Part shown: positions 33,137 to 42,639 of the stretch, piece by piece | Layout of the letters: every line of letters begins with the position of its first letter | How positions within the stretch are numbered: position 1 is the first letter of the stretch | Assembly (NCBI GenBank): GCA_021413735.1 | Contig: JAIOPV010000040.1 | Location: 1-45,134, forward strand | Length of the DNA: 45,134 bases | Direction of reading: 5' to 3' | DNA from: Planctomycetota bacterium | GTDB taxonomy: Bacteria; Planctomycetota; Planctomycetia; Gemmatales; Gemmataceae | Position numbers and translations under genes: made by a program | The notes under the pieces: model-generated | Seen by the model: the letters and a program-made list of their open reading frames with translations, nothing else | The model's database searches: none | Told to the model about the DNA's origin: nothing

Positions 33137-33439
33137 CGGGTTGCCTCCGATAGTAGTAGTGTGGTCTTCAGGGTGAGGGTATGTCTCTCGCGGTGGCCGG
33201 GGCAGAACGGCCGCCTGAAGCGGTCGGGACAATGGCGAATCGACGTCTGCCCGGTTGTTCCAGGTGATTTTCTCTCATCCGGATGGACACATGTGGCTTT
33301 TTCAACTCATTCAACCCGGTGGATGACAACTAGTTTCGTTCCGCTCCACGCAGCGTTTCGATCATGGCTGATCAATCACGATGGCCGGGGGCGAGGGCAT
33401 TTTTGGGAGAGTGCTCCGCAGTGATCGGATCGATATGCT
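33137..33439. other. Upstream region of the sulfatase operon
   Basis: About 300 bp between the DUF1080 start and the IS630 remnant. It should contain the operon promoter. No confident promoter, operator or gene is visible. Confidence 0.35.
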
Positions 33440-33730
33440 TTATGCGTTCGGGGGTAACACGTCGTCCCACATTTGGAAGTTGTGTGTCATCAGCGTCGTG
33501 AGCTTCTCTCGGTGTTTCGCCGGCAGGTCGTCCAGACAGCCGTCGATGGGGTCTTGAAACCTTTTGAAATCCTGATGACGACGACTAACGCTTCCTTCTT
33601 CACGAACTTCCACAAGCGTTCAATCAGGTTCAGGTTCGGTGAATACGACGGGAGGAACAACAACTCGATCCCCAACTTCTTCGCCGTGACTTTCACCAAC
33701 TCAAATGGTATCGCGCGTTGTCCGTGGAGC
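33440..33730 (-). pseudogene. IS630-family transposase remnant
   Basis: On the minus strand the C-terminal half of an IS630-type transposase is recognisable in three frames: DNARYH, then AKKLGIELLFLPSYSPNLNL followed by IERLWKFVKKEAL (the catalytic Glu block), then KRFQDPIDGCLDDLPAKHRE running to MWDDVLPPNA and a TAA at 33440-33442. The frame changes and the missing N-terminal half show that it is inactive. The sequence differs clearly from the other IS630 remnant in the window, so these are two separate insertions. Confidence 0.8.
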
Positions 33731-33851
33731 CCCCGGAGAGCCCAAATCAAACGAGGCACTTGCGGTTGGCTTTCAGTGCAGCAGGGTAAAGTCAGGTGGC
33801 AATTGCGATGCTGAGGCATCCGATCCGCAGCACCGGTCGAACGACGAGTGA

Positions 33852-36800
33852 TCAAACCCCAGAACGGCCCTCCGACCCTCGGTAAAGCATCCAGTACACG
33901 ACCGGCACCAACAGCAGGGTGAACGCGGTTGAGACGAGCAACCCGAAGATCAACGCCCAAGCCAATCCGCTGAACACGGGGTCGAGTGTGATTGGCCACG
34001 CACCGAGCATCGCTGCCCCAGCGGTGAGCAGGATTGGCCTGAACCGCACGGCACCGCTTTCGATCAGCGCTTCCTTCAATGTCGCTCCGCGGTCGCGGAC
34101 GTGCTGGATGAAGTCGATCAGCAGAATCGCATTCCGGTCCGCGATACCTGCCAGTGCGATCATCCCAATCATCGCGGTGGCCGTGAAGTACACCGGATTC
34201 GCAAACCCGCCGACCGTGGTTCCGGTCACGAGATTCAACAGCCAGAACCCGGGCATGATCCCGATCACCGTGAGTGGAATCGAGATCATCTGCACGAGTG
34301 GAATGAGGTAACTTCCCGTCTGATACACCATCAGGATGTAGATCAGAAGCATGGCCCCACCGAAGGCCAACCCGAGGTCACGGAACACATCCAGCGTGAT
34401 CTTCCACTCGCCTTCACCGGTCCAGACCACTTCCGCGCCACCCGGCGTCGGGTGATCCCGAATCTGGAACAGAAGCCCGATGACCGCCTCGGCCGGTGTG
34501 CGGCCCGCCGTGTCCGCCGTGACGTATCCGACACGCCGCATATTCTTGTGGTAGATCGTCTGCTCCGCGGGCAACTCCTCAAACCTTCCCAACTCACCAA
34601 CTCGAACAATCTCGCCACCCGGCGTTTTCACGCCCAGACGGAGGAGATCGGTCAGCCCGGTCCGGTTGCCAAGAGGCACCTGAATCAAAATCGTCAGGGG
34701 GTTCAATTCTCGCGGGAGGTGGCCGCTGCCCGCGCGGAAATCCTTGGGGTCGCCCTCGCCGGGTGTCATGCCGTTGAGCCCGATCCGCAGAGTGTTCGCA
34801 ATCTGCTCGGTCGTGATGCCGGTAAGCGATGCCTTCTCCTTATCCACGCGGAAGACGTATCGCGGTCGGTCGGCCTCGAATGTGTCGTCCACATCAACGA
34901 TGCCCGGCTCCTTCTCGAACAACGAGCGAACGTGGCGAGCGTCTGCCTTGAGTTCGCTCTGCGTCTGGAAGGGTTTTGCATACACTTCGGCGACGAGCGT
35001 GCTGAGAACGGGCGGCCCGGGAGGCACCTCCACGATCTTGATTCGGGAGTTGTGCATGCGGGCCAGTTGGTCCAATCCATTGCGGACTCGAAGTACGATG
35101 GCATGGCTCTGTGTTGAGCGATCTTCCTTGGAGATCAGGTTTACGCGAAGGTCGCCACGATGCGGTTCTCGACGCAAATAGTAATGCCGGACCATGCCGT
35201 TGAAGTCCATCGGCGACGCGGTGCCGGCGAACGTCAGCACCTCGGCCACTTCCGGATTCTTTTTCAATTCGTGAGCCATCTCCTGCAAAACCGCGTCGGT
35301 CGTCTCGACCGTCGTACCTTCGGGGAGATCGACGAGAACCTGGAACTCATTCTTGTTGTCGAACGGTAACATCTTGAGCGGCACGAGTCCCAGCGCCGGC
35401 ACAATGCACGCCCCCGCGAGCAAGAGCCCGGTGAAGCCGATGAGTGCCCAGGCTGCACGGCGTGATTCGAGAAACGGAGTCAGCACGGCACGGTATACGC
35501 GGTAGGTCCGCGTCTTGTGCGGGTCGGTCGGTTCGTGGCCGCCCTTGTCGTAGACGCCCTTCAGCACCTGATAGCTCAGCCAGGGCGTGACGGTGAACGC
35601 GACCACCATCGACATGAACATCGCGACCGGGACGTTCAACGCCATCGGCCGCATGTACGGCCCCATCATTCCCGTGATGAACATCATCGGCAGGAACGAC
35701 ACCATCACGACCAGCGTCGCCACAATGATCGGCGGACGGACCTCATTCACGGCATCGAGGACGGCCTCGCGTGGCGGCTTCTTCCGGAGTCCAAAGTGGC
35801 GGAAAATGTTCTCCACGTCCACGATTGGATCATCGACCACGAGGCCCAGCGCGAGGATAAGAGCGAACAGCGTCACGCGGTTGATCGAGTACCCCGCAAG
35901 GTAATTGACCAGCAGCGTGAGTGCGAACGTGAGCGGCACCGCCAAGACGACAATAATCGCTTCCCGCCAGCCCAGGCTGAACATGACCAGTGCGGATACG
36001 ATGATAATGGCGAGGCCGAGTTCGCGGATCAACTCGCTCACCTTCTCGTCGGCTGTCTCGCCGTTGTTCCGGGTGATGCGGGCCTCAATGTCGTGCGGGA
36101 TGACCGTGCCGCGGAGTTCGGCAAGTCTCGCCTCGATGGCATGCGACACCGACACCGCGTTGCTCCCTTTCCGCTTGGCAACGCCGACGGTCACAGCCGG
36201 ATAGTCGGTCACGCCGTCGGGGCGGTTCTTGGTCCCGGGGCCGAAGCTGATGCGAGTGTAGGTGCCGGGTTCCTCGGGGCCGTCGAGTACCTTCGCGATC
36301 TCGTTCACATACACCGGCTTGCCCGCGAAGACGCCAACGACCAGAGTTTCGAGTTCTTTCGCGGTCTGAACGAACGACCCGCCCTCAACCGTCACTTCGC
36401 GGTTATTCGATCGCAGAGATCCGGCCTGGATGTTCACGTTCGCGCCGCGGAGCACACGGTCCACGTCCAGCGGCGTGACCTGCCGGGCGGTCATGCGTTC
36501 GGGATCGAGTGCCACGCGGAGTTGCCGACGGCGACCGCCGACGATCTCGGTGCGGGCCGTGTCAGGAACGCCCTGAAGCGCCACCTCCACCTGCTCGGCC
36601 ACTCGCCGCAGAGCGAAGTCGTCCGACGTCTTGCTCCACAGCGTGACGTTCACCAGTGGCACATCGTCGATCTCCACGGGCTTGACCACCCAGCCCGTGA
36701 CCCCGGGCGGAACCACATCCGAGTGCATCATGATCTTGTTGTGGAGTTTCACGAGGCTCGCTTCGCGGTTCTCACCCACGAAGAACCGCACCGTGACGAT

Positions 36801-37097
36801 TGCTTCCCCCGGCCGCGACATCGAGTAGACGTACTCCACGCCGTCGATCTGCGCGAGGAGCCTTTCGAGCTTTGAGGAGACTTGCTGTTCGATTTCCTCG
36901 GCAGTGGCTCCGGGCATGCGGATGAAGATGTCGGCCATCGGCACGACGATCTGCGGCTCCTCCTCTCGCGGTGTGAGAAAGAGAGCCGCGGCCCCACACG
37001 CCAGCATGAGGAGGATGAGCAGAACCGACAAATTCCCGTGAAGGAACGCCTCGACAATGCGGGAGACGAAGCTGTGATCGGTGCGTGGCGAGGTCAT
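33852..37097 (-). CDS. RND efflux pump, inner-membrane permease (HAE1/AcrB-like)
   Basis: 1081 residues, full length. The N-terminal membrane helix NLSVLLILLMLACGAAALFL is followed by the first porter region (MADIFIRMPGATAEEIEQQV). The proton-relay aspartates lie at 422-423 in LALGLVVDDPIVDVENI, within the central helix bundle. A second large periplasmic loop follows, then the last helices (YTFTATAMIGMIAL-type segment, AGIADRNAILLIDFI). It forms the proton-driven trimeric permease of a tripartite exporter. The adaptor gene precedes it by 41 nt, and no outer-membrane TolC-type gene is adjacent. Neighbouring genes suggest stress-linked export of a toxic compound or metal; sequence alone does not separate heavy-metal (CusA-like) from drug (HAE1) specificity. 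Confidence 0.94.
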   Translation of the reverse strand: MTSPRTDHSFVSRIVEAFLHGNLSVLLILLMLACGAAALFLTPREEEPQIVVPMADIFIRMPGATAEEIEQQVSSKLERLLAQIDGVEYVYSMSRPGEAIVTVRFFVGENREASLVKLHNKIMMHSDVVPPGVTGWVVKPVEIDDVPLVNVTLWSKTSDDFALRRVAEQVEVALQGVPDTARTEIVGGRRRQLRVALDPERMTARQVTPLDVDRVLRGANVNIQAGSLRSNNREVTVEGGSFVQTAKELETLVVGVFAGKPVYVNEIAKVLDGPEEPGTYTRISFGPGTKNRPDGVTDYPAVTVGVAKRKGSNAVSVSHAIEARLAELRGTVIPHDIEARITRNNGETADEKVSELIRELGLAIIIVSALVMFSLGWREAIIVVLAVPLTFALTLLVNYLAGYSINRVTLFALILALGLVVDDPIVDVENIFRHFGLRKKPPREAVLDAVNEVRPPIIVATLVVMVSFLPMMFITGMMGPYMRPMALNVPVAMFMSMVVAFTVTPWLSYQVLKGVYDKGGHEPTDPHKTRTYRVYRAVLTPFLESRRAAWALIGFTGLLLAGACIVPALGLVPLKMLPFDNKNEFQVLVDLPEGTTVETTDAVLQEMAHELKKNPEVAEVLTFAGTASPMDFNGMVRHYYLRREPHRGDLRVNLISKEDRSTQSHAIVLRVRNGLDQLARMHNSRIKIVEVPPGPPVLSTLVAEVYAKPFQTQSELKADARHVRSLFEKEPGIVDVDDTFEADRPRYVFRVDKEKASLTGITTEQIANTLRIGLNGMTPGEGDPKDFRAGSGHLPRELNPLTILIQVPLGNRTGLTDLLRLGVKTPGGEIVRVGELGRFEELPAEQTIYHKNMRRVGYVTADTAGRTPAEAVIGLLFQIRDHPTPGGAEVVWTGEGEWKITLDVFRDLGLAFGGAMLLIYILMVYQTGSYLIPLVQMISIPLTVIGIMPGFWLLNLVTGTTVGGFANPVYFTATAMIGMIALAGIADRNAILLIDFIQHVRDRGATLKEALIESGAVRFRPILLTAGAAMLGAWPITLDPVFSGLAWALIFGLLVSTAFTLLLVPVVYWMLYRGSEGRSGV

Positions 37098-37138: not shown

Positions 37139-38254
37139 TCAGCGGGTCGGCGGCAGGGCGACGGTTTCGCCCTCACTCAGTCCGGAAAGGATCTCGACAC
37201 GATCCCCGGTCACAGGGCCGACGCGAACGAACCGGCGTGTCAACGTGTTATCGGAGTTTATCACCTCGACCAGATCGAGTTGGCCGAGTTGACGCACCGC
37301 GGTAATCGGCACGAACAGCCGCTCCACGGTGCCGACGGGGATGCTGACACGGCCGAACATGCCTGGCAGCGGTGGTTTCACGGACGGCACCTTTGGCAAT
37401 GTCACCTTCACCAGCACGGAGCGGCTTGCTTGCTGTGCCTGCGGCACCACCTCGCGAACCGACCCCATTGCGTCTCGAATCCCAGCGGCCTCGATCTGAA
37501 TCGCGAGTTGCTGACCCTCGCGAAGCTCCGGAGCGAGGCTTTCGGGGACGTTCACATGGAGTTCCAGTTCCGCCGGATCGTAGATCACCATGATCGGCTT
37601 GCCCGGAGTCGCGATGTCGCCAGGGTCCGCGAATCGGTCCGCGACGATTCCCCGAGAACCGGCGACGATTTTCGTGTAGGTCAGTTGCACGTCAAGTCGA
37701 TTGACCGCTTCCTTCACCCGCTTGACCTGGGCTTCTGCCACCTTCATCGCTCCCTCGTAGCGGGCAAATTCCGCCACACCGATGACGCCTTTCTCCCGCT
37801 CGCTTTGGGCGCGGGTGAAGTCGCTCTTGCGGACGAGCAAGTCGGCCTCAGTGGCCGTCACGGCCGCAAGTGCCTCTGCCTGTTGAGCGAGCAGTTCGCG
37901 GTTGTCGAGCAGGACCAACTCTTGGTCTGGCTTCACGGCGTCGCCAGGGCGAACTTTCACGTCGAGGATGCGGGCGAGTAACTGGGCCGAAACCTCCGTT
38001 CGTCGCCGAGGCTGCACGCTTCCGACAGCGGTCGCCGTGTCCTCAATCCGCCGTTTCTCGACTTTCGCCGCCGGCCGACCGGTAGCAACCTCTCGTGGCA
38101 CGGATACCTCGCCGGGTTGCACCTTCTCGCGGAAAGCGCCGCCCATCCAGGCCAGGAACGCGACGAGGCCGACGACTGCAAGTGCGGCCGTTCCGATGGA
38201 CCGAACGACCGGCCACACACGGCGAGGTTCAACCTGGGCTACGGTTGCTGTCAT
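37139..38254 (-). CDS. RND periplasmic adaptor (HlyD/MFP family)
   Basis: 371 residues. A single membrane anchor at about 19-38 (IGTAALAVVGLVAFLAWMGG) is followed by a barrel-sandwich/lipoyl half motif (VSAQLLARILDVKVRPGDAV), a coiled-coil hairpin (about 110-185, RKSDFTRAQSEREKGVIGVA), the second lipoyl half (KIVAGSRGIVADRFADPGD) and beta-barrel/membrane-proximal parts (LFVPITAVRQLGQLDLVEVI). It links the RND permease to an outer-membrane channel. A GTG three codons upstream (38257-38263 region) is an alternative start. Cotranscribed with the permease. Confidence 0.93.
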   Translation of the reverse strand: MTATVAQVEPRRVWPVVRSIGTAALAVVGLVAFLAWMGGAFREKVQPGEVSVPREVATGRPAAKVEKRRIEDTATAVGSVQPRRRTEVSAQLLARILDVKVRPGDAVKPDQELVLLDNRELLAQQAEALAAVTATEADLLVRKSDFTRAQSEREKGVIGVAEFARYEGAMKVAEAQVKRVKEAVNRLDVQLTYTKIVAGSRGIVADRFADPGDIATPGKPIMVIYDPAELELHVNVPESLAPELREGQQLAIQIEAAGIRDAMGSVREVVPQAQQASRSVLVKVTLPKVPSVKPPLPGMFGRVSIPVGTVERLFVPITAVRQLGQLDLVEVINSDNTLTRRFVRVGPVTGDRVEILSGLSEGETVALPPTR

Positions 38255-38364: not shown

Positions 38365-38514
38365 TCAGGTCGAGATACCCGCCTTCGGAAGAACCCAGAT
38401 TTGGAGGACGAACCAAAGAGCTACAATACCCAGGAGTAACAGAACATCCATTGAATACCTCGGGGATGGTGTGGCCTCGGCATCGGGCACACGTGGGGAG
38501 TCGTCTGGTGTCAT
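38365..38514 (-). CDS. Small single-pass membrane protein
   Basis: 49 residues. Start ATG at 38514 overlaps the stop of the upstream gene (ATGA, 38514-38511), a strong sign of a real coupled gene. A polar, proline-rich N-terminus (TPDDSPRVPDAEATPSPRYS) is followed by one hydrophobic helix MDVLLLLGIVALWFVLQIWV and a short tail LPKAGIST. It lies 110 bp upstream of the RND adaptor in the same orientation. I recognise no family. Size and position suggest an accessory subunit of the pump, comparable in concept to AcrZ, but no sequence similarity is claimed. Confidence 0.7.
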   Translation of the reverse strand: MTPDDSPRVPDAEATPSPRYSMDVLLLLGIVALWFVLQIWVLPKAGIST

Positions 38515-39056
38515 GGGTTCTTCGCCTTTACCTTCTCGGGTAATGGATGATCCTTGTGCACTTCCTCGAAACCGTTCTCGACGAACTTCGAGACAACTTC
38601 GGCGTGGGCCTGGATCAACTTGGCGACATAGGGATCGTCTGAGGTCTCGGTCACCTTCACGCCCTTCTCCGTTTTCTCGACCTTCATGGTGATCTTGTCT
38701 GAATGTTTGAAAATCTCGGCGAACAGCGGGTCGCGGTAATGGATTCCCTTGCCCTCCTTGACGCGAGAGTGCATCGCGGTCGCGTGTTCCTGAATCTTCT
38801 TTGCAACTTCGGGCACGGCGGATTCGGTGACCGTCTCGACACCAGTCTTGGTTTCGACCACCGTTCGTTTGATATCCTTCCGATTCGTCAGCAGAGAGTG
38901 GAACACGTCGCGGTCGGCGGCGAAGTTTTCGTCCTTGCCCATTCCCTTGCCTTTGCCCGGTGGCTGGGTCGATGTACCAGTCGCGGCGAGCATCACGATC
39001 AGACACAGAGCGATCAACACCCTACAGCCGGCCCGTGGCGAGAAAATCGACTTCAT
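38511..39056 (-). CDS. Exported protein with two 60-residue repeats, unknown function
   Basis: 181 residues. Signal LIALCLIVMLAATGTSTQPP, then a glycine/lysine-rich linker. Two tandem repeats follow: residues 51-110 and 111-171. They align as VFHSLLTNRKDIKRTVVETK against LFAEIFKHSDKITMKVEKTE, then GVETVTES against GVKVTETS, then VAKKIQEHA against VAKLIQAHA. Each unit is a beta-hairpin followed by an amphipathic helix carrying a conserved His (H91/H151). Homologues occur in planctomycetes beside metal-type efflux genes as far as I recall, without assigned function. Second gene of the operon ending with the RND pump, 18 nt after the small membrane protein gene. Confidence 0.85.
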   Translation of the reverse strand: MKSIFSPRAGCRVLIALCLIVMLAATGTSTQPPGKGKGMGKDENFAADRDVFHSLLTNRKDIKRTVVETKTGVETVTESAVPEVAKKIQEHATAMHSRVKEGKGIHYRDPLFAEIFKHSDKITMKVEKTEKGVKVTETSDDPYVAKLIQAHAEVVSKFVENGFEEVHKDHPLPEKVKAKNP

Positions 39057-39074: not shown

Positions 39075-39290
39075 TTAGCGGCCACAGCAGTTCCGATCAG
39101 GGAACAGGATCAAAGCAAGCCCACCGAGGGCAACCAGACCGGCCCAAGCTGGGTCCACAAACAGCGCGAGGGCCGCCCCGATCACCGCGAGTGAGCCGCC
39201 AACAATGACGATACGACGATGGCTCTGTCGCGAATCACTGGCGACGGAGGATTTCATGGTGTCTGCTGTCGAGCTACATGACGTTGACAT
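39075..39290 (-). CDS. Small two-helix membrane protein
   Basis: 71 residues from the ATG at 39290, which has GGAGAA 6-11 nt upstream. A serine-rich N-terminus (MSTSCSSTADTMKSS) and basic SRQSHRR are followed by IVIVGGSLAVIGAALALFVD and PAWAGLVALGGLALILFP, two membrane helices, and a terminal CCGR. The layout resembles the DUF2892/YgaP-type membrane modules often found with rhodaneses, but I do not claim membership. It is the first gene left of the divergent promoter element and faces the rhodanese gene, which fits a shared role in sulfur or redox stress. Confidence 0.75.
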   Translation of the reverse strand: MSTSCSSTADTMKSSVASDSRQSHRRIVIVGGSLAVIGAALALFVDPAWAGLVALGGLALILFPDRNCCGR

Positions 39291-39322: not shown

Positions 39323-39351
39323 TTGATCCGTGAGTGAACCAGAAAGTTACA
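39323..39351 (-). promoter_or_regulatory. ECF-type promoter, leftward (TGTAAC-N16-GGATCAA)
   Basis: On the minus strand TGTAAC (39351-39346) is followed after exactly 16 nt by GGATCAA (39329-39323). It lies 32 nt upstream of the first gene of the RND operon. The hexamer-N16-heptamer layout suits an ECF sigma factor, and it is identical in both boxes and spacing to the rightward copy at 39381-39409. Recognition by the sigma encoded at 39933 is inferred. Confidence 0.7.
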
Positions 39352-39380
39352 AACCGGGGGAAAATCGCCGGGAAATTTTC

Positions 39381-39409
39381 TGTAACCTCCTGAGTAGGTC
39401 GCGGATCAA
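39381..39409 (+). promoter_or_regulatory. ECF-type promoter, rightward (TGTAAC-N16-GGATCAA)
   Basis: TGTAAC (39381-39386), 16 nt, then GGATCAA (39403-39409), 53 nt upstream of the rhodanese ATG. It forms a mirror pair with the leftward copy; the two -35-like boxes are 29 bp apart, and the 16-nt spacers differ from each other, so the shared boxes are not a simple duplication. The region between them holds a GC-rich direct repeat (CCGGGGGAAAAT / CCGGGAAATTTT). Confidence 0.7.
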
Positions 39410-39462
39410 TCATTCGACTTGTGGGTTGCAAGTCGGGTTCGTTTCGATTTTTGGAGAGTGTG

Positions 39463-39852
39463 ATGAACCGATTCGTATGCGGGGCAGTTGCGATGTGTGC
39501 CGTGTCCGGCTTCGCCGGCGCTGCCGATCACACGACCGACAGCCTGGAGACCGTGAAGAAAAGCGTCGCGGATGGGAAAGCGGTACTTGTTGATGTGCGG
39601 GAAGACGGTGAGTGGAAAGATGGGCATCTCAAGGACGCCCGACTGCTCCCACTTTCGGACATCAAGAAGGGCGTCCCGGAGGAGAAGCTCAAGAAGACGC
39701 TGCCACCGGGGACCGTCGTCTATTTGCATTGTGGCTCAGGAATCCGTTGCCTGGCCGCAGGCGAGCTGCTCAAGAAGCAGGGCTACGACGTGAGACCACT
39801 GAAGGACGGTTACATGGGGCTGTTGAAGGCCGGGTTCCCACAGGAGAAGTGA
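39463..39852 (+). CDS. Exported rhodanese-domain protein
   Basis: 129 residues. Signal MNRFVCGAVAMCAVSGFAGA directs it to the periplasm. A single rhodanese domain follows: AVLVDVREDGEWKDGHLKDA, then the active-site loop HCGSGIRC with the likely persulfide-carrying Cys90, then LLKKQGYDVRPLKDGY. The start has GGAGAGTG directly upstream of the ATG. Rhodaneses move sulfane sulfur between thiols; an exported single-domain version would act on periplasmic persulfides, cyanide or thiosulfate. First gene to the right of the divergent promoter and 80 bp upstream of the ECF sigma gene. Confidence 0.92.
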   Translation: MNRFVCGAVAMCAVSGFAGAADHTTDSLETVKKSVADGKAVLVDVREDGEWKDGHLKDARLLPLSDIKKGVPEEKLKKTLPPGTVVYLHCGSGIRCLAAGELLKKQGYDVRPLKDGYMGLLKAGFPQEK

Positions 39853-39932: not shown

Positions 39933-40592
39933 ATGAGTTCACAACCCCCAGAGTCCGTTTCTGTTCCGCCTGTCGATCCCGACCGGGATATCGTCCGTCG
40001 CGCGCAGGCCGGTGAGTTCGCGGCCTTTGAGGAACTCGTTGGGCGTTTCCAGTCCCGGGTCTTCGGGCTGGCTTACCGAATGCTTGGAGAGTCGCACGAT
40101 GCGGAGGACGTGACCCAGCAGACGTTCCTCAGTCTGGTCGAACACCTTCGGGACTTTCGCGAAGAATCGGGGGTTGCCGCGTGGGTGCTACGGATCGCCG
40201 CCAACCACGCCCTGAAACTCCTCCGCAAGCGCCGAGGCTTGCCGACCGTGACGCTCAACGACACGAGTGGCCCCGAGGAAGGGTATGGGGACGTGCCGCA
40301 CCCAGCGTTCATCGCCCCGTGGCGGGATGACCCGACCGACCTCGCCGAGCGACACGAAGTTCGGGAGTTAATCGACCGGGCGCTGGCCGATCTGGATGAA
40401 AAGTACCGGGCCGTCTTCGTTCTGCGGGATGTGGAGGGGTTCTCGATCCAGGAGACGGCTGAGTTGCTCGGCATCTCGGAAGCCAACGTGAAAGTCCGGC
40501 TCCTTCGGGCACGACTTGCCCTCCGGGAGCGACTGACCCGGGTGCTGGGTGACGAGACGACCCGCGTGTTCCCCGACCATCAACATGGCTGA
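39933..40592 (+). CDS. ECF (RpoE-like) RNA polymerase sigma factor
   Basis: 219 residues from the ATG at 39933. Region 2: FAAFEELVGRFQSRVFGLAY then RMLGESHDAEDVTQQTFLSL (the DAEDVxQ core-binding/-10 recognition signature). Region 4: LDEKYRAVFVLRDVEGFSIQ followed by ETAELLGISEANVKVRLLRA (the -35-binding helix-turn-helix). This is a classical group of RpoE/SigW-like ECFs. Downstream are a coiled-coil gene (20-nt gap) and a zinc-finger anti-sigma gene, a typical sigma/anti-sigma arrangement. The sigma is the obvious candidate to read the two TGTAAC-N16-GGATCAA promoters. TACTTGTCCG (39902-39911) upstream resembles a motif before the other sigma gene. Confidence 0.94.
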   Translation: MSSQPPESVSVPPVDPDRDIVRRAQAGEFAAFEELVGRFQSRVFGLAYRMLGESHDAEDVTQQTFLSLVEHLRDFREESGVAAWVLRIAANHALKLLRKRRGLPTVTLNDTSGPEEGYGDVPHPAFIAPWRDDPTDLAERHEVRELIDRALADLDEKYRAVFVLRDVEGFSIQETAELLGISEANVKVRLLRARLALRERLTRVLGDETTRVFPDHQHG

Positions 40593-40612: not shown

Positions 40613-41143
40613 ATGTCCGAGATCAACACACTGCAAGAGCAGATCGACGCCCAATTCACGGCTGCGGCTCGCCGAGCCGAAGTGGGGCGGCAGGAGGCAG
40701 CCCGGGAACAGCAGGATCGAGATGCACGGCTCGCCAAGTTCGATGCCGTGGTGGAACTGTTTTGCACAATCTGGCGGCCCCGGCTGGAACTTCTCCGCAG
40801 CCGGTTTGCCGAGTTGGTGAAGGTCAACCCGGTGATCAAACCGCATAACCGGGAAGCAACCTTCTCGTTCGTCTCCGAACGATACAAGATCGAACTCAAG
40901 TTCTCCGCTGGCCCTGACTACGATATCCGAAACCTGGTCCTGGAATACGACCTCCAGATCATCCCGGTGCTCATCAAGTTCGACTCCCACAGCCGTCTGG
41001 TTCAACCCCTCGACAACATCGACGAGCGCGCGGTCGCGGACTGGCTGGACGAGCGTATTCTGGGATTCGTTAGCACTTACGTCGCCCTCCAGGGCGATAC
41101 CTTCTTCCTTGAACACATGGCTCAGAGCAGTGCCCCGACGTGA
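40613..41143 (+). CDS. Unknown coiled-coil protein in the sigma operon
   Basis: 176 residues. Residues 1-45 are a charged heptad-like coiled coil (LQEQIDAQFTAAARRAEVGR, QEAAREQQDRDARLAKFDAV). The rest is a mixed alpha/beta globular part (FSFVSERYKIELKFSAGPDY, VLEYDLQIIPVLIKFDSHS, ADWLDERILGFVSTYVAL). No signal peptide or membrane helix. I recognise no family. It has a GAGGTGA ribosome binding site and sits 20 nt after the sigma gene and 34 nt before the anti-sigma gene, so it is part of this regulatory operon and may be a partner or modulator of one of them. Confidence 0.85.
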   Translation: MSEINTLQEQIDAQFTAAARRAEVGRQEAAREQQDRDARLAKFDAVVELFCTIWRPRLELLRSRFAELVKVNPVIKPHNREATFSFVSERYKIELKFSAGPDYDIRNLVLEYDLQIIPVLIKFDSHSRLVQPLDNIDERAVADWLDERILGFVSTYVALQGDTFFLEHMAQSSAPT

Positions 41144-41177: not shown

Positions 41178-41429
41178 ATGACCTGCGAAGAGTTGCTGAA
41201 AGCGCTCAACGACTACGTCGACGACGAGACGATGATCGCCGTGTGCCGAGAGTTCGCCGAACACCTGGCCGGGTGTAACCCATGCCAGGTGGTGGTGGAC
41301 AACATCCGCAAGACGATCCAGCTTTACAAGGACGGCGAACCGTATCCCGTGCCGCCCGCCTGCGCCGCCCGCATGAGAGACTCGCTCCGCGAGAAGTGGA
41401 AGGCGGTCTATCCACAATCCACGGGGTGA
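41178..41429 (+). CDS. Zinc-finger anti-sigma factor (ZAS-type)
   Basis: 83 residues. The motif H29-x3-C33-x2-C36 (HLAGCNPCQ) is the HxxxCxxC zinc-binding signature of RsrA/ChrR-type anti-sigma domains, with additional cysteines at 3 and 23 as possible ligands. A helical tail follows (MRDSLREKWKAVYP). There is no membrane helix, so it is a soluble anti-sigma. Such proteins hold the sigma through a zinc centre that opens on thiol oxidation or metal stress. The GGAGGAC before the ATG is a good ribosome binding site. Last gene of the operon, convergent with the methyltransferase-DsrE gene 16 bp away. Confidence 0.88.
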   Translation: MTCEELLKALNDYVDDETMIAVCREFAEHLAGCNPCQVVVDNIRKTIQLYKDGEPYPVPPACAARMRDSLREKWKAVYPQSTG

Positions 41430-41445: not shown

Positions 41446-42639
41446 TCAGTGTGCGGGAACGTACGCGAACCCGCGGGTCTGGAGGTTCACGACAGCCGAA
41501 ACGGCCGAGGCCGCGACCGACACGTCACCCCGCACCCGTCCCGAGTCGTACCCCTTTCGTGCCAGCGACTGCCCGCATACCAGCACCTTCACCCCAACCT
41601 CCTTCAACTTCTTCAGCAAGTCCGCACTCGGGTGTGGTCGGCCGGTGAGTTCCTTGTACGCAGCATCGTCCAGTGCTGTCGATGTTGCGTCTCCGTGTAG
41701 CACCACCACGATTTCCAGATCCGTAGGTTTCAGTCCGGCGGCACCGGCCAGGTTCAGAAGCAGTGCGGCACGCTCCAACCCGGGCAAGGGTTTGTCCGGT
41801 TCCTTGCCGGTCGCGGTGACGTCGAAGACGACCTTGCTTCCCTTGGTCGGTGGTTCGGCTGCCGTTGGAAGTGGCACCACGGCTCCGTACCCGGGGACCA
41901 GCGGAGTGACCGACTTCGTCTCCTTCGCAGGAGCCTTCGCTGGCGGTGCATCTGCTTTCGTCGGCTTCGTGAATACGACCAGGTAGTTTTCCTTGAGTAG
42001 ATCCTTCACTTCCTCGGACCTGTCGAACCCGGCCGCGATAATCTCCTTCTCGACCACCTCCTGCCCAGCCCGGACATGGTTCAGCACCCAGTCCGAACTC
42101 TTCCCCGGGATGCGAGCGAAATCGACGACAACGAGCTTTCCGCCGGGCTTGATTGCGCGGTGGAGAGACAGCAGCGTCCGCTCTGGGAACTCGAAGTGGT
42201 GGTAAGTGTCGCAAACGAACGCCAGATCGACGGAATCCGCGGGCAGATCGACCGAGTCCGGGTTACACAAAACAGGGGTGACGTTCCGCAGTCCGGCTTC
42301 CCGGCTAGTTTTCTGGATATGTTCGAGGAATTTCGCGGCGATATCGACCGCGTACACCTGCCCGCCTGCCCCCACTTCTTTTGCGAACAGCCGGGTAAAC
42401 AGTCCAGTCCCAGCGCCGACATCAGCGACCACCATGCCAGGTTTCAGTTTGCACAGGCCGACGAGCTTGTCTCGCTTCGCGAACACCTCCCGGCTCTCGC
42501 CCTCGAACTTCCCCTGAAAATCCTTGACGTCGGGGTTCTTGAACGGGTCGTTGATTCCGGGCTTAACGCTCTTTTCCTGGGCAAAGAGCGCCCAGGAAAA
42601 GAGGGCGAACAGGAGAAAGCCGATCAGTGGTCGTGTCAT
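41446..42639 (-). CDS. Exported methyltransferase-DsrE fusion protein
   Basis: 397 residues. Signal MTRPLIGFLLFALFSWALFA. Residues about 40-225 are a class I SAM methyltransferase: motif I VVADVGAGTGLFTRLFAKEV (71-90), VYAVDIAAKFLEHIQ, CDTYHHFEFPERTLL and HRAIKPGGKLVVVDFAR. A proline/lysine-rich linker (TKADAPPAKAPAKETKSV) joins it to a C-terminal DsrE/DsrF-like domain at about 280-397 (LEIVVVLHGDATSTALDDAA, VGVKVLVCGQSLARKGYDS), with a cysteine in VLVCGQS. DsrE-type proteins carry sulfur. Finding both after a signal peptide is odd because SAM is cytoplasmic. Convergent with the anti-sigma gene. Acceptor unknown. Confidence 0.88.
   Translation of the reverse strand: MTRPLIGFLLFALFSWALFAQEKSVKPGINDPFKNPDVKDFQGKFEGESREVFAKRDKLVGLCKLKPGMVVADVGAGTGLFTRLFAKEVGAGGQVYAVDIAAKFLEHIQKTSREAGLRNVTPVLCNPDSVDLPADSVDLAFVCDTYHHFEFPERTLLSLHRAIKPGGKLVVVDFARIPGKSSDWVLNHVRAGQEVVEKEIIAAGFDRSEEVKDLLKENYLVVFTKPTKADAPPAKAPAKETKSVTPLVPGYGAVVPLPTAAEPPTKGSKVVFDVTATGKEPDKPLPGLERAALLLNLAGAAGLKPTDLEIVVVLHGDATSTALDDAAYKELTGRPHPSADLLKKLKEVGVKVLVCGQSLARKGYDSGRVRGDVSVAASAVSAVVNLQTRGFAYVPAH

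Follow-up and report, generated by a model that had tools for sequence, protein, structure and literature searches.

Planctomycetes carry many ECF sigma factors, and the locus considered here raises the question of which promoters one such factor may read and to what signal it may answer. The window, i.e., the whole stretch of 45,134 nucleotides that was analysed, contains two divergent copies of the sequence TGTAAC-N16-GGATCAA located between two operons. The rightward operon encodes, in this order, a rhodanese, an ECF sigma factor, a 176-aa protein and an 83-aa zf-HC2 protein; the leftward operon encodes a 71-aa membrane protein, a 181-aa protein, a HlyD-type adaptor and an RND permease. The mirror pair is interpreted as two divergent ECF-type promoters that would be read by the sigma factor of the rightward operon, with a probability of about 0.85 estimated from sequence comparison. 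The features of the window are as follows.

33852..37097, minus strand: RND efflux permease (PF00873, E 6.9e-166), taken as the final gene of the leftward operon
37139..38254, minus strand: HlyD/CusB-type periplasmic adaptor (PF16576; TIGR01730 above its cutoff)
38511..39056, minus strand: 181-aa protein without assigned function, with YgaP-like TM among its relatives
39075..39290, minus strand: 71-aa small membrane protein, a YgaP-like TM relative by similarity to a rhodanese-YgaP_TM fusion
39323..39351, minus strand: candidate leftward ECF-type promoter TGTAAC-N16-GGATCAA, 32 nt ahead of the start codon at 39290
39381..39409, plus strand: candidate rightward ECF-type promoter TGTAAC-N16-GGATCAA, 53 nt ahead of the rhodanese start codon at 39463
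39414..39436, plus strand: hairpin with an 8-bp stem and a 7-nt loop, where the rhodanese-sigma transcript is predicted to begin
39463..39852, plus strand: rhodanese-like sulfurtransferase (PF00581, E 4.8e-14)
39933..40592, plus strand: ECF sigma factor with regions 2 and 4 only (PF04542, PF08281), for which orthologues were found
40613..41143, plus strand: 176-aa protein without assigned function, found otherwise just at L038 and L067 (one genome) among the loci examined
41178..41429, plus strand: zf-HC2 anti-sigma factor of 83 aa with the pattern C3...H29xxxC33xxC36 (PF13490, E 1.4e-7)

E. coli YgaP is a rhodanese joined to a membrane domain. The 71-aa protein, which has no Pfam match above the curated cutoff, can be aligned with the membrane portion of a rhodanese-YgaP fusion (40% over 47 aa). 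No Pfam family above the cutoff was found for the 181-aa protein; at least two of its 532 homologues at E 0.001 (P0013 and P0035) carry PF11127 (YgaP-like TM) among the matches listed. Judging by these similarities, the window seems to carry a YgaP-like protein split in two, the rhodanese and the membrane part, one per mirror promoter. The anti-sigma factor of the window has 1519 homologues at E 0.001. The sigma factor ends in an HxH tail, often PDHxH (40560-40592 in the window), which is a possible metal site. By eye, the N-terminus of the rhodanese-like protein (39463..39852) resembles a signal peptide, and the stretch 33420-33850 beyond the RND gene resembles a transposase remnant. A methyltransferase-DsrE fusion (41446-42639, minus strand) is convergent on the anti-sigma gene, and its homologues lie near the sigma gene elsewhere too, e.g., at L039, L040, L077 and L112.

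The pair was present as the first-pass annotation had described it, with identical boxes separated by the same 16 nt in both arms. In 100 dinucleotide-shuffled versions of the window, TGTAAC-N16-GGATCAA did not occur. A genome-wide search, proposed in that annotation and covering 9,797,810 bases in 293 contigs (95.7% complete), found the two window sites as the only exact matches to TGTAAC-N14..18-GGATCAA, the control pattern giving none. The pattern TGTAAC-N14..17-GG[AC]TC occurred in the same genome at background level (13 matches vs. 18 in the control). The pattern TGTAAC-N14..17-CGGAT gave six matches vs. one in the control; four of the six lie outside the mirror pair, and one of these four (C287) was without a clear target on re-inspection. 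These searches thus yield no support for a distal regulon in this genome.

The two spacers are identical at 8 of 16 positions. In the flanks, just 2 of 29 positions on the inner side of the boxes and 9 of 45 on the outer side agree. A recent inverted duplication was therefore rejected as the source of the pair. Selection rather than duplication had been proposed from the differing spacers; the flanks argue for it, as does the recurrence of pairs with differing spacers at orthologous loci. The spacers do differ, but they are not free sequence, since the motif family has [CT]TTT right after TGTAAC.

Among the 198 relatives searched, the sigma orthologue forms a clear group of 27 genomes (E < 1e-60; next match 3.5e-35). 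A second sigma search supplied the best 80 loci, on contigs mostly from Planctomycetota and Verrucomicrobiota, and 95 loci were analysed after 12 duplicates had been dropped. Comparison of orthologous loci, which the first-pass annotation had also suggested, found a mirror pair with differing spacers at 11 of the 95. All 11 are within the 27 close orthologous loci; outside the window the pair is conserved at L038-L042, L046, L048, L049, L053 (which belongs to another family) and L054, and the left box at L040 is CGTAAC. The layout is specific to a clade (11 of the 27 close loci). A loose first pattern with spacers of 14-18 nt had matches, mostly single ones, in 22 of 59 relatives, with 7 control matches; its sole use was in locating the pairs of G008 and G039. 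On the sigma protein tree the mirror label needs two changes, implying more than one gain or loss of the arrangement on this tree, the root, the bootstrap and some long branches of which are unsure.

A refined motif was present in 14 of the 27 genomes with the sigma orthologue vs. 8 of the 171 without it (Fisher p = 3.6e-9), and absent from 13 of the 27. In site numbers, this corresponds to 23 vs. 6 control sites in the genomes with the orthologue and 9 vs. 15 in those without. The claimed link of the pair to the resident sigma factor, which the annotation had offered as an inference, gains comparative support from this distribution. The strict pattern had 68 sites and one control match in 25 genomes picked because their loci carry the motif. 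Targets of the expected kind stand behind the matches at L148 and L169. None was found at L147, L161 and L164, each a single refined-motif match in an orthologue genome, and inspection by eye likewise revealed none behind the motif at L147, L155, L157, L160-L162, L164, L166-L168 and L176.

The motif was also recovered without being prompted. All gapped 5+4-mers in the 1.2 kb upstream of the sigma genes were counted against an expectation from the word counts of each sequence itself. The top dyad over 90 sigma loci was GTAAC-N15-GGAT (12 loci vs. 0.55 expected), which also ranked first in the 20 closest loci; for the remaining 70 loci it was GTAAC-N15-GGCT (10 vs. 0.38 expected). The lists contain further words too, e.g., AGTGGA-N18-ACGC and CCGGG-N12-AAGT, which may be rhodanese coding sequence. 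Counting without composition correction was discarded, having yielded GC-rich words only. The pattern NGTAAC-N14..16-GG[AC]TC within 1.5 kb upstream of sigma had 35 matches in 22 of the 95 loci, vs. 0 or 1 in each of seven controls, in which the boxes were reversed or spaced differently; elsewhere in the loci there were 64 matches vs. 1-10 in controls. A position weight matrix (PWM), trained on strict sites from the very loci that it scanned, found 125 sites in 948,536 bases and none in the reversed sequence. Chance as the source of the pair is ruled out by the shuffles, the genome-wide uniqueness, the locus controls and the matrix scan of reversed sequence. The family consensus from 94 strict sites is TGTAAC[CT]TTT-N11-GG[AC]TC followed by A-rich positions, with box spacings of 15 nt (76 sites), 16 nt (17) and 14 nt (1). 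The unprompted rank of the dyad, the controls and the conservation in orthologues favour the ECF-type promoter layout that had been suggested for the pair.

The site tends to accompany the anti-sigma gene. An HxxxCxxC frame lies within 900 nt of the sigma gene in 67 of the 95 loci, some of the others being cut by contig ends. A site near the sigma gene was found in 55 of these 67 loci vs. 6 of the 28 without such a frame (p = 3e-8). At PWM ≥10, no site near the sigma gene was found in 34 of the 95 loci, 12 of which have the zinc-finger frame; some loci end at contig edges, and the zinc-finger gene of L089 is just outside the 900-nt limit. Neither the frame nor the motif is nearby at 22 sigma loci (L050, L055, L057, L058, L063, L078, L085 and 15 more), some of them cut by contig ends. 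These 22 loci may be wired differently; the top candidate for an alternative dyad there was GTGAG-N17-AGAT, in 5 loci. Extra zinc-finger genes were observed behind motif sites in L226, L232 and L238, on contigs other than that of the sigma locus used, and some genomes may hold two such sigma/anti-sigma circuits.

Two positions of the site relative to the sigma gene are found. In 43 of 95 loci, a coding-strand site with PWM ≥10 directly follows the sigma gene and stands between sigma and anti-sigma, in place of the mirror layout or in addition to it. Strict sites in this position, for which the coding strand only was searched, number 27, and 25 have a zinc-finger frame behind them. Of 92 loci examined for TGTAAC in the 70 nt that follow the sigma gene, 37 have it on the coding strand and one has it on the opposite strand. 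In 14 of the 95 loci, one of them the window, a forward site precedes the sigma gene. Of the 67 zinc-finger loci, 12 have such an upstream forward site and 55 do not; a site between sigma and anti-sigma was found in 1 of the former vs. 41 of the latter (p = 3e-5). In many lineages, the sigma-dependent promoter thus appears to serve the anti-sigma gene and the genes downstream; in the clade of the window, it appears to serve the sigma operon itself, which would make this operon self-activating. Autoregulation of the rhodanese-sigma operon, another proposal of the first-pass annotation, is in line with this comparison and with the pair kept at 11 of the 27 close loci. Lineages whose promoter feeds the brake and lineages whose promoter feeds the sigma factor would together form a natural experiment on how feedback is wired.

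The same data bear on another explanation of the pair, namely a binding site of a dimeric DNA-binding regulator in place of two promoters. The inverted arrangement at 11 loci would suit it. However, the gap between the inner boxes is 29 nt in the window, 157 nt in L039, 12 nt in L041 and 11 nt in L046, which rules out a dimer site of fixed geometry. TGTAAC just behind the sigma genes points in the same direction in 37 of 38 cases and the boxes are 15 or 16 nt apart in 93 of the 94 strict sites, so a dimer site is very improbable. The first search for sigma relatives returned 75 candidate stretches in the genome of the window, so recognition of the motif by some other ECF factor is conceivable in principle.

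According to the preferred reading, RNA polymerase with the ECF sigma factor of the rightward operon would read the -35 and -10 elements of both divergent promoters, and release of the sigma factor by the small zinc-finger anti-sigma factor would make both fire. The rightward promoter would supply the rhodanese, the sigma factor, the 176-aa protein and the anti-sigma factor, i.e., positive and negative feedback at once. The leftward one would supply the YgaP-type membrane protein, the 181-aa protein and the HlyD/RND efflux parts. Comparison supports the motif and its tie to the sigma family, where it sits and which way it points, and a set of genes behind it that is rich in sulfur functions; the binding of the motif by the sigma factor, the positions of transcript starts and the signal sensed are inferred.

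The genes behind the sites were taken as the first labelled gene within 300 nt of each of the 125 sites. Their labels derive partly from representatives chosen behind motif sites, while the Pfam names are independent. The commonest were zinc finger (42), rhodanese (13), thioredoxin (12), YgaP-like TM (11) and rhodanese-YgaP fusion (8). Relatives of the 71-aa window protein (4), the 181-aa protein, YeeE/YedE and CoADR-rhodanese (3 each) were less common. HlyD, metallo-beta-lactamase-rhodanese and cytochrome c were found twice each; SQR-like, TauE, UPF698 and CCP once each; and 16 sites had no such gene. The names 'SQR-like' and 'CoADR' are our reading of Pyr_redox domains, and for the 'SQR-like' gene of L169 Pfam gives Pyr_redox_2 only. 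Of the 32 regions fetched from the search of the 25 genomes, 23 carry a listed family behind the site by homology label; two (L230 and L250) have AhpC/TSA and an outer-membrane efflux protein by Pfam; and seven are of another kind, ambiguous or lacking a reading frame. L232, L242 and L252 have a YgaP-like gene with HlyD after it, which is the order of functions in the leftward operon of the window.

Several traits of ECF systems are found in the window. The sigma factor consists of regions 2 and 4 only, and the zf-HC2 gene of the same operon encodes its putative cognate anti-sigma factor. AAC is the usual core of ECF -35 elements, and the CGT-type -10 element was an early hallmark later dropped as defining (excerpts of PMC8103513). 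At the level of the motif, the -35 is of the AAC type; the -10 is not of the CGT type, the family consensus being GG[AC]TC. The promoter of the ECF16 group is tGTAACc-N16-CGAA, and the EcfF regulon motif of Bradyrhizobium japonicum includes GTAAC (part of PMC3420878). These agree with the TGTAAC found here in the -35, whereas their -10 is CGAA or CG(t,a) and the present motif has GG[AC]TC at TGTAAC-N15/16-GG (PMC3420878). With the -35 in agreement and the -10 and spacing different, the motif does not match the ECF16 promoter. The suggestion that TGTAAC would define a new ECF promoter class thus fails for the -35 box, while the GG[AC]TC part does depart from the promoters quoted. ECF factors, zinc anti-sigma factors and TGTAAC-type -35 boxes are all already known (PMC8103513 and PMC3420878, in part). 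No literature match was obtained for the GG[AC]TC -10, the promoter position between the two genes and the sulfur gene set, in a comparison made without the main ECF classification (10.1093/nar/gkaa1229).

Which signal opens the circuit may be approached through the anti-sigma factor and the target genes. In the alignment of 74 anti-sigma sequences, C3, H29, C33 and C36 are common to the rows, being forced by the selection pattern. Two features were not forced: the rows shown have a C-N/H/D-P-C core, and 62 of the 74 have a further cysteine at position 23. In PerR of Synechococcus PCC7002, polysulfide modifies a zinc-cysteine site and zinc is released (excerpts of PMC9952342); this PerR is a repressor and not an anti-sigma factor, and the likeness lies in the zinc-cysteine site opened by polysulfide. 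From this precedent, sulfane sulfur is proposed as the signal at the anti-sigma factor: an excess of it (persulfide or polysulfide), or a nearby thiol stress, would most likely act as the trigger at the Zn-Cys site. That sulfane sulfur is the specific signal has slightly better than even odds.

The targets of the persulfide sensors CstR, SqrR/BigR and YgaV include rhodanese, persulfide-handling enzymes and YeeE/TauE, kinds similar to those found here. Like the other sulfane-sulfur regulators met in the literature, these sensors are DNA-binding proteins and not sigma factors (parts of PMC9774590 and PMC9774250). The main text of the review on such sensors (PMC9774590) never uses the term 'sigma factor'. 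Literature joining ECF, sigma or anti-sigma factors with sulfur contained no such sigma factor among the matches listed, with few subscription papers covered.

General thiol oxidation or peroxide stress, sensed through the same sigma-dependent promoters as in SigR/RsrA, is the main rival to sulfane sulfur. In actinobacteria, thioredoxin is among the SigR targets, and SigR promoters are of the GGAAT type. A zinc-binding anti-sigma factor is encoded beside the ECF sigma factor there, as it is here (cf. part of PMC4960319). The RsrA model is the best NCBIfam match of the window anti-sigma factor, though with 24.8 bits against TIGR03988 (cutoff 62.5) the protein stays outside this family. Thioredoxin genes are frequent targets, being found behind 12 of 125 sites, in 8 of the 32 fetched regions and farther along in L228, and AhpC/TSA, C_GCAxxG_C_C and CCP genes also stand behind sites. 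However, rhodanese, YgaP_TM, YeeE/YedE, TauE, metallo-beta-lactamase-rhodanese and CoADR-rhodanese indicate sulfur, so thiol or peroxide stress as the signal is possible and on the whole doubtful.

Metal stress, with the circuit driving mainly the RND pump from the same promoters, is improbable. HlyD/RND genes do recur beside sigma in several phyla; they are directly behind sites in L075 and L141 and behind YgaP_TM in L232, L242 and L252. The adaptor matches CusB- and CzcB-like models, and the sigma C-terminal HxH is present in 59 of 67 loci with a zinc-finger frame and 22 of 28 without. Nevertheless, HlyD is first behind just 2 of 125 sites, and the permease reaches 260 bits against a CusA/CzcA cutoff of 701, but is under the multidrug cutoffs too. 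General thiol, peroxide or metal stress would likewise account for targets such as thioredoxin, peroxiredoxin, cytochrome c peroxidase and HlyD/RND.

The best reading of the compared loci is thus a sulfane-sulfur/thiol-stress sigma circuit of Planctomycetota and Verrucomicrobiota, probably self-activating in the clade of the window and mostly feeding the anti-sigma factor elsewhere. For its narrower form the chances are about even: here an ECF sigma/zinc-finger anti-sigma pair of both phyla would sense sulfane sulfur and control its disposal, the between-type promoter would feed the brake, and the upstream type of the window clade would self-activate with the YgaP-like halves on divergent promoters. 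Comparison thereby links one planctomycete ECF sigma factor to a promoter sequence, a set of genes and a likely signal; with the same motif beside sigma relatives in distant bacteria, a new sulfur-stress control circuit becomes testable.

Stems of at least 6 bp were found in 9 of the 11 rhodanese-side leaders of the mirror loci and in 4 of the 11 on the other side, the sides being counted by hand. As a general feature of all sites the leader hairpin was not supported (31 of 123 sites vs. 15-35 in 20 mononucleotide shuffles). The rhodanese-side leader stems of the mirror loci differ from one another in sequence.
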